From Onthophagus taurus (lineage: Eukaryota; Arthropoda; Insecta; Coleoptera; Scarabaeidae): 64,000 bases of DNA. Numbering within the stretch: position 1 is the first letter of the stretch; each line of letters opens with the position of its first letter. The position numbers were made by a program, and so were the translations under genes. The notes under the pieces were generated by a model that was not told the origin of the DNA, did not search any database, and saw only the letters and a program-made list of their open reading frames with translations. The stretch covers positions 20,336,001-20,400,000 of the forward strand of contig NC_091967.1 in the NCBI RefSeq assembly GCF_036711975.1, given 5' to 3'. Positions 54,075-60,012 of this stretch are shown here, piece after piece.

Positions 54075-54961
54075 TTATAAAATTTTATTTAAACTGAGTT
54101 GATGGCAGTTTTGCCAGCACTTCAAGAATGCAGAGTCGATTATCGATATATCAAACTTATTTATAATATCTACAAGAATGCTACAATGACTGTAAAATTG
54201 CATGAAAGTTCTGAGGAGAGTAAAAGTAGTAAAGTACTGATTGTGAGTAAAACAAGGCGATACACTTGTGATGAACCCAACTTGTTCATCACAGTCCTGG
54301 AGAGTGCATTTAAACAACTGGAGGTGTGTGCAAGAGTCGGGCTAAATATCAACGAGGAGAAATCAAAATTTATGACAAATCTTGTTCCCAGCTCTAACAT
54401 CAACATTGGGGATAGTGAGATTGAGAGGGTTATGTATATCTTGGCTATGAGGTTCGTGTATCGAGAGATAATCAAACAAGCGAATTAAACAGAAGGATCA
54501 CACTCATATGGACAGCCTACGGGAAACTTAGAGACATCTTCAAGAGAAAAGGCCAAAAAAGGCGTGTTCTTTGTTATGACATATGGCTCCCAAACTTTAA
54601 CATTAACGGTAGCCACTGCCAGGAGGGTCTAAGTAACGCAAAGATAGATGGAGAGATCGATCCTGGGTGTAACTCTGAGGGACTACATATGAAATGAAGA
54701 CCTATGAAGAAGAACTGGCATAAATGATATGGTCAACATTGTGACAAAGCTTAAGTGGAACTAGGCGGGTCATGTCGCGCGAAGGAAGAATGAGTAGTGG
54801 ACAAAACGGTTGCTTGAATGGAGACCGCAAGCGAACAGATGAAGTAGACGTCAAAAGAATGACCAAAAAATTGGATTCAGACAGCAGAGAATAGAATCGA
54901 ATGGAACAGAATAGAGGAGGTCTATGTCCAACAATGGACGTAGAGGGCTGCTTGATGATAA
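54075..54961 (+). pseudogene. Endonuclease-RT LINE fragment (palm to 3' end)
   Basis: Reads ALQECRVDYRYIKLIYNIYK (from 54112), then VLESAFKQLE, VGLNINEEKSKFMTNL, then in other frames RITLIWTAYGKLRDIFKR, and near the end EVYVQQWT followed by an AGGGCTGCTTGATGATAAT tail. The YADD segment between VLESAFKQL and VGLNIN is deleted. The ending is typical of this class. The CACTA-like element inserted into its tail. Confidence 0.82.
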
Positions 54962-54964
54962 TAA

Positions 54965-55782
54965 CACTAGTCTACAAAAAAAAAATCATAAAATGTACAT
55001 CTGACGCCACTGTATTTTTCTTATGTAGTTTGGTCCCCTAAACTCAAAAATCACATTTAAAATTTTTTCTATGGATACGTTTTGGAGCTAAGAATTTTTT
55101 TTTTTTTTTAGAGGTACTTTGATTATTTGCAGCATATCTCGAGTTAGAGATGACCGATCTGGTGGTGCTATTCATCAAATTAAAGAGTATTGTATAGCCA
55201 ATAAATGGTATTAATGCTTATTCCAATCGGTTCGGTAGTTTTAAAACAATGGCCCATAATATGTGAAAAAAAAGGATTTTTTTAGACAAAATGTGAACCA
55301 AAAATTCATTCAATATCCGTGTAGAGTCGCAGAAAAATTCTTTTTTACCTTCTACGTAAAGGTTGCTCTTTTTAGAAGAAAATAAGGTACGCAGGATGAG
55401 AATCGGTGGAGAAATTACCAAAAATTATGATCTTCTATATGCGAGAGCACAGCTTTTTCTTGTACAAAAAATTCCGCGCAACTAGACCGTTAGAAATTTT
55501 TAGGTTTCATGTTCATACGTTTCTGAGATTTTACGTGTAGGAGCTATTCATCCCAATCTTTCGATTTAAAATAATTTCAAGACGGCTGCCACATCTAGTG
55601 TACCGGAAGTAGCCTACAACTTCGTTATTTTAAACGGAATGCTGCAATTTTTCTTGGATATTTGAATTGAAAAACGGTTTTTTTAATCAAAAATGACAAT
55701 ACAAAATTCACTCGCAAAAAGAGAAACGCAAAAATTTCGTCTTATTTTTTACATACAGTTTGTACTTTTACAATAGGAAGAC
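54965..55782 (+). repeat. Long terminal inverted repeat, left (~800 bp)
   Basis: Inverse of ~58331-59124 at roughly 93-95% by eye, with a few indels (for example, extra AAGGTTGCTCTTTTTAGAAG near 55360). Includes shared words AGTTAGAGATGACCGATCTG and GTAGCCTACAACTTCG. Confidence 0.88.
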
Positions 55783-55961
55783 AATATTTACGACCAAAGC
55801 CTATAGAGAAATATCGAAATTATGATCATTTGTGAGTCAAAGTGCCAACATCCAGCTTTTCCTGTTTCTGTAATTTCTCTCAAAAAGCACGAAATACAGT
55901 TCTTCATTCAGTTTATTTTGATTGTAACACTTAGGTATTTATAAAATAGTATGCACAAGTC

Positions 55962-56200
55962 TTAGAAATAAGTTTGCCCCCCGCTTTGCCTTCTGTTTAT
56001 TTGAGAATCCGTCTCTCTTATGAGGAACCAGATATAGTCTCCCATCATTCTTTCATCCCAAATTCCCTGATAACGCCGCTCAATGTTCTTCATTTGTTGG
56101 TGGAATCTTTCGCCATGTTCGTCACTTACGTCACCAAGATTCTCCGGGAAGAAATTTAAGTGTGAGTGTAAAAAATGAATTTTTAGAGACATATTTACAC
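55962..56200 (-). CDS. CACTA-like element protein, exon 3
   Basis: The acceptor TTTTTTCCAACAG precedes 56200; G|GT joins as Gly. It encodes VNMSLKIHFLHSHLNFFPEN, then LGDVSDEHGERFHQQMKNIE, then RRYQGIWDERMMGDYIWFLI, ending TAA at 55962. This EHGERFHQ region is the most conserved tail of the family and holds acidic residues (about E507 and E510) that could include the catalytic Glu. Confidence 0.85.
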
Positions 56201-56440
56201 CTGTTGGAAAAAATTAAAATAAAATTAAACGTATAACTGAAAATAATGAAATAACGTGTATTTGTAAACTGCCTGCATCCCCATAGCTTTTGAAATGTAC
56301 ATCGAAATTAAATTCAGAATAAAAAACGTGTCATTCCTTCATTGTTTTTTTATTCTGAATCAAAATGTCTCTTAACTCGGAACCTGCAGGGATGCTGGTA
56401 CTTTACGGATACCCGGAATAATAATAATAATGATCTATAC

Positions 56441-57630
56441 CCATTTTTGCATAATTCTGAAGCAAATTTTCAACAATTGTCTCGTAATTCGGGCTTTTAT
56501 TGTTTCCAAGAAAATCAGAAACAATTAACTGAAACGAATTCCAGGCTGCAGCTTCAACGGATGATAAATAGGTTTGAAATTTGTCATCTTTTAAAAGTTT
56601 TTTTATTTGTGGACCGTTGAAAACACCTTCCTTGATTTTTGCGAATGAAAGATTTTCAAATAAGGTTCTTAAATAAGCAAACGCTTGGCCTTCTATATCC
56701 AGCGCTTTCACAAAATTCTTGAAGAGTCCAAGTTTAATATGTAATGGCTGTAGAAGGATGTTTTCTTTTTTAATAAGAGGCAAGTATTTAATGTTGCCCT
56801 CGCCGAGGGTGTGGCTTTTTCTTTCAGGCCATTGCGTCCTCTTATAATGGTGTTCCCTTGCGCGGCTGTCCCAAAGACAAAGGAAACAACAATATTTCGT
56901 GTAGCCGCTTTGTAAACCACATAACATGCCTGTGACTTTTAAATCGGCACAAACTTTCCAGTCATGGTCTTCGTAATTAACAGATTTTAATAGTTTAACC
57001 ATTGTTTCGTACGATTCTTTGGTATTTACAGCATGCGCGATCGGAATTGATGGTTTTTCATTTCCATTATGCAAGAGAACTGCTTTCAAACTACATTTAT
57101 TGCTATCAATAAATAACCGCCACTCGTGTGCCTTATAAGGCTGGCCAAGCTCCTCGAACAAACCGGGAATGTCTTTGCAAAAGCATATGTTATCAGTTGA
57201 CGTATAATACTTTGTATAAGGCCTGTCACGGTCTCTGTAATATGTTACTTTAACACTCGTATCCAAAAAGTGATATTGCTTCATACGAGATGCATGTAAT
57301 TCTGCTTTCTCCTTTGAAAGCTCCAAGTCTCTCACCCAATCATTCAGTTCTTCCTGTGTTAGAAGATGCTGTTCATGCTGTCCTTGACATTCAGTTAAAT
57401 CACTTCGGAAATCTGACGTATCAGTACTTGAGGACTGAGATAAATCAGGGCAGTTGGGGATGGGAAGTGTATCTGAATGCGGAACTGGAAACGTGACAGA
57501 TGGTACATTTGCATAAACCCATCGCATATTTTTCCCAATTCCGGTTTGTTTACTTAGGCAAAAGTAGCAGTCGGTTGTATGACAAAGTGGTTCTTTCCAA
57601 ATCATTGGTACGCCAAATTTCATGTACCGC
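56441..57630 (-). CDS. CACTA-like element protein, exon 2 (core)
   Basis: Acceptor TTTAACGTTAG, donor ATG G|GTATAG. The spliced protein is 558 aa with no stop or frameshift. The family is common in arthropods and other animals as uncharacterised proteins. It starts MKFGVPMIWKEP with HTTDCYFC, then NVPSVTFPVPHSDTLPIP, EELNDWVRDLELSKEKAELH, HEWRLFIDSNKCSLKAVLLH (D258), DWKVCADLKVTGMLCGLQSG (D312), YTKYCCFLCLWDSRAREHHY (C331/C334, H343/H344) and LQPLHIKLGLFKNFVKALD (H380). Two Asp in strand-like segments followed by a C-x2-C/H cluster and a C-terminal Glu resemble the layout of CMC transposases. Transposase identity is inference; position inside CACTA ends supports it. Confidence 0.85.
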
Positions 57631-57684
57631 CTAACGTTAAAAAAAGTTATAAATTATAAACTATTTTTAACATGAAATACATAC

Positions 57685-57932
57685 GCTGGCGCGCCGGAGG
57701 CCCATCCACTAAGATTTATATGACAATTAAGACATAAAAAACTTGGTGTCCATTGTTCTTGAAGATTCTCAGCTGGTATTCCAAAATATTGGAGATAATT
57801 TTCTTGTACCGAATTAGTAAATTTACGTATGTTTTTCTTGACGACATATTCACCACACACATAACAGAAATTAAGGGGGTCGTTTTCACACTCAAAAATT
57901 CGTTGTCTTTTACTCATTTTATAATCAAGCAT
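57685..57932 (-). CDS. CACTA-like element protein, exon 1
   Basis: ATG at 57932 (or in-frame ATG 57917, MSKRQRIFECEND). It encodes FCYVCGEYVV and, 44 residues later, CLNCHINLSGW, two C-x2-C pairs that with HTTDCYFC of exon 2 would make an N-terminal zinc-binding, probably DNA-binding, domain. Donor AGC|GTATGT, phase 2; the intron is 54 bp. Joining gives GAPARYMKFGVP, restoring the family consensus. Confidence 0.85.
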
Positions 57933-58330
57933 GAAATTAAACTATATTATACGATACAATTTGTGAACAACTGTTTAACGCTGAATATGGAACTCCAATG
58001 AATAACTATAGCAATCTTAGTCTCCACGAAACCTTCCCTTACGGTACAGTGGGGGTTTTTATGATGCTCACTTTTTTCTTAACATTCCGGGAAAAAACCT
58101 TTTCATTTGTCCTCGAGAAACGTATTTATTTTAATATTGTTCAAGTAGGTAAAAAAAGATGGGACAAACCTGTGTGCGAAGAACCTTTGTTCTAAAACCG
58201 ATAGTTTTCCAAGAATAATAAAATGCACTGGTACCTCAAATATCCTTTTTCAAGTAAACTTAATTCATTGAGTAAAACGGCAATATACGTTAGGAATACC
58301 GAAAAATATAGAAACAGGAAAAACCTGGGC

Positions 58331-59124
58331 ATCTTCCTATTGTAAAAGTACAAACCTTATGTAAAAAATAAGACGGAATTTTTGCGGCTCTCCAAGGTGT
58401 TTAAGTGAATTTTGTATTGCGATTTTTGATTAAAAAAACCGTTTTTCAATTCAAATATCCAATAAAAATTGCAGTATTCCGTTTAAAATAACGAAGTTGT
58501 AGGCTACTTCCGGTACACTGGATGTGGCAGCCATCTTGAAATTATTTTAAATCGAAAGATTGGGATGAATAGAATAGCTCCTATACGTAAAATCTCAGAA
58601 ACGTATGAAACATGAAACCTAAAAATTTCTAACGGTATACTTGCGCGGAATTTCTTGTACAAGAAAAAGCTGTGCTCTCACATATAGAAGATGATAATTT
58701 TTGGTAATTTCTCCACCGATTCTCATCGCATTACATAGAAAGTAAAAAAGAATTTTTCTGCGACTCTACACGGATATTGAATGAATTTTTGGTTCACATT
58801 TTGTCTAAAAAAAATTCTTTTTTCACATATTATGGGCCATTAGTTTAAAACTACCGAACCGATTGGAATAAGCATTAATACCATTTATTGGCTATACAAT
58901 ACTCTTTAATTTGATGAATAGCACCACCAGATCGGTCATCTCTAACTCGAGATATGCTGCAAAAAGTCAAAGTACCTCTAAAAAAAAAAAAAAATTCATA
59001 GCTCCAAAACGTATCCATAGAAAAAGTTTTAAATGTGATTTTTGAGTTTAGGGGACCAAACTACATAAGAAAAATACAGTGGCGTCAAATGTACATTTTA
59101 TGATTTTTTTTTTGTAGACTAGTG
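58331..59124 (-). repeat. Long terminal inverted repeat, right (~800 bp)
   Basis: Inverted partner of 54965-55782. The promoter of the minus-strand gene must lie between here and 57933. Confidence 0.88.
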
Positions 59125-59384
59125 TAATCATAATAACTTGATCTAATTTAAATTACGACAGATTCGTCTGATGATAATACGTCTTTGATTGTTGATAATT
59201 CCTCGTCTTCATAGTCCATTTCATCATCTTCTCCTTCATTTTTTTTTTGAATCTGATATATTTTTACTGGTATCACTTTTATACGTACTATTTGGGTGTT
59301 TACCCTGGACCGGGGTAAATACCCGGACAAATACCCATTTTAGAAATACCTACCCGCTGGGTATTTACCCAGCGTCCATCACTG

Positions 59385-59392: not shown

Positions 59393-60012
59393 ACAATAAA
59401 TATTGTGGAAGAAAGAATGCATAGCCGCATAGTGCGAATTGTAAAGCGAGGCGGAAATTGTGAATGAGTCAAGATTGACATTATGATTCCTATAGGTGGG
59501 CACTTCTAGATGAGAAGTCGTTGAGTGATCATATAATAACTGAACTGAAGGTTTGATTGAGCGTTAGACAAATGCTAATTCTAATCTCTTTCTTTCTACA
59601 ACATGACGCCGCACAGTGGGGCGAAGCGCTCTTTTGACTAGTGTTACTGTATATGGTGTATATCTGATAAGAAAAACCTGTGTCACTGCTACCTATTCTG
59701 TGTTGTTGAAAGTTCTTCGAAGGATAGGTATCTTTCTCTGCAATTACCTCATGATGTCAATCTTGACTCATTCACAAATTCCTCCTCGCTTTACAATGCG
59801 CACATACCGGCTATGCATTCTTCCTACCACAATCCCTGTATTTATCCCATTTCGTTATACAGCCTTTACATACCTATACACTTCTTTACATCAATGAAAT
59901 TCTCGATCCTACACGAACTCAAGTCCACGTAAGCCCACGTAGATCAAGAGCCGAGGCTAAATAAAAATCTTTTGTTTGCATCAAAATTGGAATTTATTAT
60001 TATATGAATACT
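59393..60012. repeat. Inner left arm, loop and right arm of the palindromic repeat
   Basis: 59393-59490 (AGAATGCATAGCCG, TTGTAAAGCGAGG, GTGAATGAGTCAAGATTGAC) is the inverse of 59745-59850. 59850-60012 is the inverse of 53766-53930. Between them is a ~250-bp loop without coding content. So before the hAT insertion this was a ~330-bp-arm hairpin repeat. Confidence 0.75.

Follow-up and report, generated by a model that had tools for sequence, protein, structure and literature searches.

What kind of element occupies positions 54965-59124 of the window, and to which known family does its protein belong? By the window we mean the whole 64,000-nucleotide stretch analysed here, positions 20,336,001 to 20,400,000 of contig NC_091967.1 of the beetle Onthophagus taurus. 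The original prediction, made from the DNA letters, saw a complete CACTA-like transposon whose protein, regarded as uncharacterised, would be the transposase of a distinct CACTA-related lineage. We conclude with high confidence that it is an autonomous-looking Chapaev3 DNA transposon of the Chapaev-Mirage-CACTA/Transib group. It is therefore ordinary in kind, a well-preserved example of Chapaev3 and not a new element type, and it is mobile and has multiplied recently in O. taurus.

The complete element is 4160 bp long and carries its gene on the minus strand. It starts with CACTAG at 54965 and finishes with CTAGTG at 59124, and a copy of TAA stands directly outside each end (54962-54964, preceded by A, and 59125-59127, followed by T), which we read as the target duplication. 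The left inverted arm (54965-55781) and the right one (58332-59124), each about 0.8 kb and delimited by alignment with the other, are identical at 755 of 785 aligned bases (96%) with 48 gap columns, counts that take in four aligned columns just outside the element ends. The alignment score was 1297, and 100 shufflings of the left arm gave 36 at most. The CACTA...TAGTG ends, the inverted repeats of about 800 bp and the TAA on both sides were as originally described. Both flanks (54855-54961 and 59128-59237) are parts of one host repeat family, which has uninterrupted sites elsewhere in the genome.

The three-exon gene was also borne out, with an open frame containing no internal stops and encoding 558 amino acids (aa) if translation starts at the first ATG and 553 aa if it starts at the second (57917). 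Exon 1 (57685-57932, 248 nt from the first ATG) encodes a zinc domain with C23xxC26...C67xxC70; counted from the second ATG it measures 233 nt, or 78 codons including the split one. Exon 2 (56441-57630) holds D258, D312, C331xxC334 and L379-H380, and exon 3 with the stop codon (55962-56200) holds H488(4)H493 and the probable catalytic E510 within SDEHGERFHQ. The two introns (57631-57684, 54 nt, and 56201-56440, 240 nt), predicted from the sequence, both begin with GT and end with AG, and the proposed splice phases of 2 and 1 agree with the exon lengths. Four other copies in the genome (L009-L012) retain the open frame and GT-AG at both introns, and an O. taurus protein at NCBI (P0001), which starts in exon 2 and is the best named relative among the matches listed (95% identity over 85% of the query), spans the second junction identically. 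Intron 2 is not present in the relatives L020 and L022, whose transposases lie in a single frame.

The copies of the element were sought in the 290.8-Mb assembly, in which the window belongs to contig C2. The window protein gave at least 106 matching stretches dispersed over contigs, exons being counted apart and the figure being a lower bound because scoring covered 78 of the 1559 first-look candidates, and the stretches fall into identity groups of about 75-100%, 50%, 46% and 38-44%. A search with the initial 130 bases of the arm gave 40 scored matches of 129 candidates, and the joined window flanks 40 of 398, each of the latter crossing the junction. All five empty sites fetched (5/5) have one uninterrupted TAA through the insertion point. 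The three-exon frames of L009, L010, L011 and L012 are intact, and these copies and that of the window are 98-99% identical over the whole element; the five share their ends, and their flanks differ from copy to copy. Among other copies, L013 has one stop in the coding region and L015 has seven, and L037 (C2:4427656), a derivative of 1.6 kb with an internal deletion, has about 420 bp of interior unlike the element. L037 has a TTA duplication and one of its arms is cut to about 210 bp, which suggests that movement does not require the whole arm. An element of another subfamily with an approximately 48% identical protein (L021:2690-4855) was found inserted at the same base in another copy of the host repeat.

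We counted 16 distinct insertions with both ends read, belonging to three subfamilies: nine of the window subfamily ending in CACTAG (the window, L009, L010, L011, L012, L015, L037, L041/42 and the L043-L052 event), four of subfamily B ending in CACTGG (L019, L020, L021 and L028) and three of subfamily C ending in CACAGG (L022-L024). Elements with one end absent (L025 and L026) and single ends such as L013, L017 and L053-L058 were left out of this count, though L013 and L053 may represent opposite ends of a single copy. A direct 3-bp duplication was found in 14 of the 16, being TWA in 13 and TAG in one, with A before it in 14/14 and T after it in 13/14; that of L012 was scored at its outer end. 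CAC is common to all three subfamilies, and the terminal CACTA is confined to that of the window; one end of L015 and one of the L043-L052 event have AAC in place of CAC. Elements of subfamilies B and C measure 2062-2557 bp, close to the published Garfield and Merrow. L043-L052 comprise five end pairs on four contigs, two of them on the short contig C13, spanning about 1.6 kb in three pairs and 4.25 kb in two; as the five share nearly the same flanks, we took them as one event, probably one insertion copied inside a larger segment.

The protein belongs to a family with 1490 matches at an expect value (E) up to 0.001, and the few named proteins among the 120 matches listed are all called uncharacterised or hypothetical. 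An alignment of 106 rows was built from 103 of these 120 (17, mainly short ones, were omitted) and three open reading frames of the genome, its rows being relatives of the window protein. Every one of the 106 has the two Asp, the two Cys and the His of the LH pair, and 105/106 have both His of H(4)H and the Glu, the remaining row being gapped; CxxC and H(4)H are spaced alike in 105/105 rows holding all sites. At the position of E507, two rows have a substitution and one has a gap, which makes E510 the stronger candidate as third acid. In an alignment of 105 sequences including the window protein, all 105 have D258, and 104 each have D312 and E510. The predicted model of the relative P0005 has an RNase H core, and its best solved folds in Foldseek were RAG1 and Transib, with 10-14% identity in the structural alignments listed; sequence and profile searches against solved structures gave nothing better than E 0.12. 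The conserved D258, D312 and C-terminal Glu, and in the model of this relative the RNase H fold, thus appeared as the original prediction had expected. Relatives in single-copy positions outside inverted repeats and a fold lacking such a core would have spoken against it, and neither was encountered: the matches are dispersed, the copies have ends and, in 14/16, duplications, and the core is predicted. The reading as a DNA transposon with this protein as its transposase is supported.

Two side observations concern the range of this family. A protein of the bee Anthophora retusa (P0002) is second among the matches listed, with 78% identity over 85% of the query, a likeness that could possibly reflect horizontal transfer, judging from sequence. 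A search for relatives in viral contigs, as a possible place of a bracovirus copy, gave 57 pattern-fitting stretches, of which none was confirmed.

The assignment to Chapaev3 is based on published hallmarks, which are cited here from excerpts of the papers. According to PMC4079192, these are CAC...GTG ends, a TWA duplication between A and T, and the motifs C(2)C, LH and H(4)H, and the three motifs are given likewise in PMC12730594. The window protein holds all three, as C331(2)C334, L379H380 and H488(4)H493, in addition to the DDE (Asp-Asp-Glu) residues. The complete elements Merrow and Garfield have transposases of 77-78 plus 477-484 aa, and other Chapaev3 transposases are apparently mostly single-exon (PMC4079192, in the excerpts). 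The agreement with Chapaev3 in ends, target, motifs and the lengths of protein and first exon does not support an uncharacterised family, as had been proposed, nor a distinct CACTA-related lineage. Chapaev3 has already been placed, in published passages, in the Chapaev-Mirage-CACTA megafamily near Transib and RAG1, and of the three subfamilies read only that of the window has the CACTA end. Chapaev elements are not new to this beetle either, because an arthropod survey, as excerpted, records them in every species surveyed, O. taurus included (PMC6327564).

A true CACTA/EnSpm element would explain the CACTA...TAGTG ends and the 3-bp duplication, and we nevertheless regard it as very unlikely. 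Transposase_21 was absent from the Pfam matches of the window protein up to E 10 (where filters drop most matches above 0.1) and from those up to E 1 of 37 family members, namely 36 rows of the 106-row alignment and the window protein. The sister subfamilies have the same type of transposase and end in CACTGG or CACAGG, so that only CAC is common, and the A-TWA-T target and the 78-aa first exon match Chapaev3. The best solved folds, RAG1 and Transib, also speak against CACTA/EnSpm, but no CACTA transposase structure was among the rows shown. Transposase_21 and the Chapaev family DUF1280 gave no match when searched against the beetle's own genome, and the controls were silent too, so that this does not show their absence. 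A new superfamily of the Chapaev-Mirage-CACTA/Transib group, of the same rank as Chapaev, Mirage and Transib, might be suggested by the lack of any Pfam match over the cut-off for the window protein and of any NCBIfam match for P0005; such a superfamily is highly improbable, since in ends, target, motifs, length and first exon the element agrees with the Chapaev3 hallmarks.

Several points weigh against the Chapaev3 reading or narrow it. Membership rests on hallmarks and not on an alignment or tree with named Chapaev3 sequences, and the Chapaev3 descriptions excerpted from PMC4079192 contain neither a second intron nor 0.8-kb arms. DUF1280 (PF06918) was not among the matches of the window protein, which is tempered by the description of Chapaev3, in the excerpts, as distant from other Chapaevs. 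The structure model is that of P0005, 56% identical to the window protein, and Transib chains were absent from the 50 Foldseek rows shown and were found only in a second look. Two of the 16 insertions lack a direct duplication, L010 with its inverted flank and the L043-L052 event with its altered end. The hairpin chemistry considered below is proposed by analogy with RAG1 and Transib. Finally, L009 has Gly in place of a conserved Asp near the C-terminus, and thus an open frame need not mean activity. In the literature searched, nothing paired Chapaev with "long terminal inverted repeats", nothing was found for the block EHGERFHQ, and the sole paper among the matches listed for Chapaev3, RAG1 and AlphaFold together was PMC12730594, whose excerpts apply AlphaFold to TET/JBP proteins.

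The age of the Chapaev3 element can be judged from the five intact copies. Recent activity had been proposed from the intact coding sequence and from arms about 95% similar; the intact gene, with copies 98-99% identical, upholds it, and the arm similarity does not. Identity is 92-96% between the two arms of a copy and 97-99% between corresponding arms of different copies, and at 14 of 728 ungapped arm columns the left/right difference is fixed in all five, which means that the arms diverged before the copies spread. Divergence of the arms is then an old feature of the family and does not date the element. Differences in the coding sequences fall on all three codon positions, and non-synonymous codons exceed synonymous ones in 10/10 pairs, as expected for evolution without selection after insertion. 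A domesticated host gene lying by chance between inverted repeats, to which the intact frame and splicing might point, has practically no chance of being the answer in view of five near-identical dispersed copies with common ends and separate flanks, no sign of purifying selection since insertion in the codon differences, and the existence of empty sites.

As a mechanism for the Chapaev3 element, we propose that a dimer of the transposase, joined or guided by the N-terminal zinc domain, would bind both CACTAG ends, and that the D258/D312/E510 site would excise the element, probably by nicking and by forming a hairpin on the flanks, as RAG1 and Transib do. The two strands of an A-TWA-T target would then receive the 3' ends at points three bases apart, and repair of this 3-base stagger would give the TWA duplication. 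"Chapaev3 transposase" is a name for a family so far called uncharacterised or hypothetical, and the structure prediction supports the published proposal that Chapaev3 is related to RAG1 and Transib. The predicted fold resembles that of the enzyme that shuffles human antibody genes, and several intact copies in one beetle genome provide material for testing RAG-like hairpin formation biochemically.

The one lead that would surprise specialists concerns residues 1-84, a C2C2 zinc-type domain. This domain and ZAD (zf-AD), the dimerisation domain of insect C2H2 transcription factors, may have a common origin, a tentative idea about which we are somewhat doubtful. The N-terminal alignment (20 of 26 picked N-termini plus that of the window, six being left out) was compared with ZAD (5 of 40 matches, stop-free and covering nearly the full profile) and with sets drawn near the top for THAP (5 of 133) and FYVE (6 of 15). 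The best profile E was 2.3e-5 for ZAD with a trimmed set, compared with 0.31 for THAP and 0.023 for FYVE; structural scores were modest. The Pfam zf-AD scores, 17 bits for the window protein and 20.7, 15.3, 12.5 and 20.1 for others, are below the cut-off of 28, and L020 gave no zf-AD match. Chapaev3 is described as having an N-terminal Chapa zinc domain in common with RAG1; as to this domain, RAG1_imp_bd matched 3/37 members, with a best E of 0.0064 and, where given, 16.5 and 12.3 bits against a cut-off of 23.3. One beetle ZAD, L075 (G000:C7:40631800-40632090), is much like the Chapaev3 N-terminus in the region of its second Cys pair (LPAGCCWTCASAILSW), and leaving it out weakened the ZAD profile match to E 0.003. 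No paper treating Chapaev and ZAD together was among the literature matches listed. If the kinship is true, part of a RAG-type transposase lives on in a large class of insect regulators, or the borrowing went the other way, and insect gene regulation is tied to transposon domestication.

Two intact copies have inverted flanks. In L012:2050-7164 (G000:C5:12473049-12478163), whose arms are 95% identical, a 407-bp stretch adjoining the right end repeats the left flank in inverted orientation at 99.0% identity, and beyond it come 20-25 bp of filler, about 95 bp of the outermost right arm again and a TAA matching the left TAA. The simplest account is a break in the right arm repaired by copying from the left arm outward and then returning; insertion into a palindrome is less likely. 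L010:1724-7257 (G000:C3), with arms 94% identical and no direct target duplication, has 664-bp inverted flanks (99.2% identical) composed of a repeat seen as inverted pairs elsewhere, and this copy possibly inserted into a palindrome. An assembly artefact may be behind the inverted flanks of both. Just to the right of the window element there is an 85-nt inverted repeat (59402-59486 and 59749-59833, 88% complementary, 262 nt apart), which is possibly a small transposon.

Among known systems, PIF/Harbinger elements share the 3-bp TWA duplication and have a second, Myb-like gene beside the transposase. No second gene was recognised here, the internal short open reading frames (60-102 aa) not having been searched, and the CAC...GTG ends and the RAG1-like predicted fold differ from PIF/Harbinger. 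CACTA/EnSpm has CACTA ends and a 3-bp duplication in common with the present element and belongs to the same megafamily, but Transposase_21 is not matched here and the sister subfamilies do not end in CACTA. Transib and RAG1 are alike in the predicted core fold and in the layout of DDE and zinc ligands, and the ends of Transib and the recombination signal sequences (RSS) begin with CAC, as here. Transib differs in its 5-bp duplication, against 3 bp here, and canonical Transib has no N-terminal zinc domain, which is present here (PMC4411706, as excerpted). The closest agreement is with Merrow and Garfield of Chapaev3 (PMC4079192, in the excerpts): their complete elements are about 2.3-2.45 kb long with two exons, compared with 4160 bp and three exons here, and they share with the O. 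taurus element the CAC...GTG ends, the A-TWA-T target, the C(2)C, LH and H(4)H motifs, a transposase of about 554-562 aa (553 or 558 aa here) and a first exon of 77-78 aa (78 codons here).
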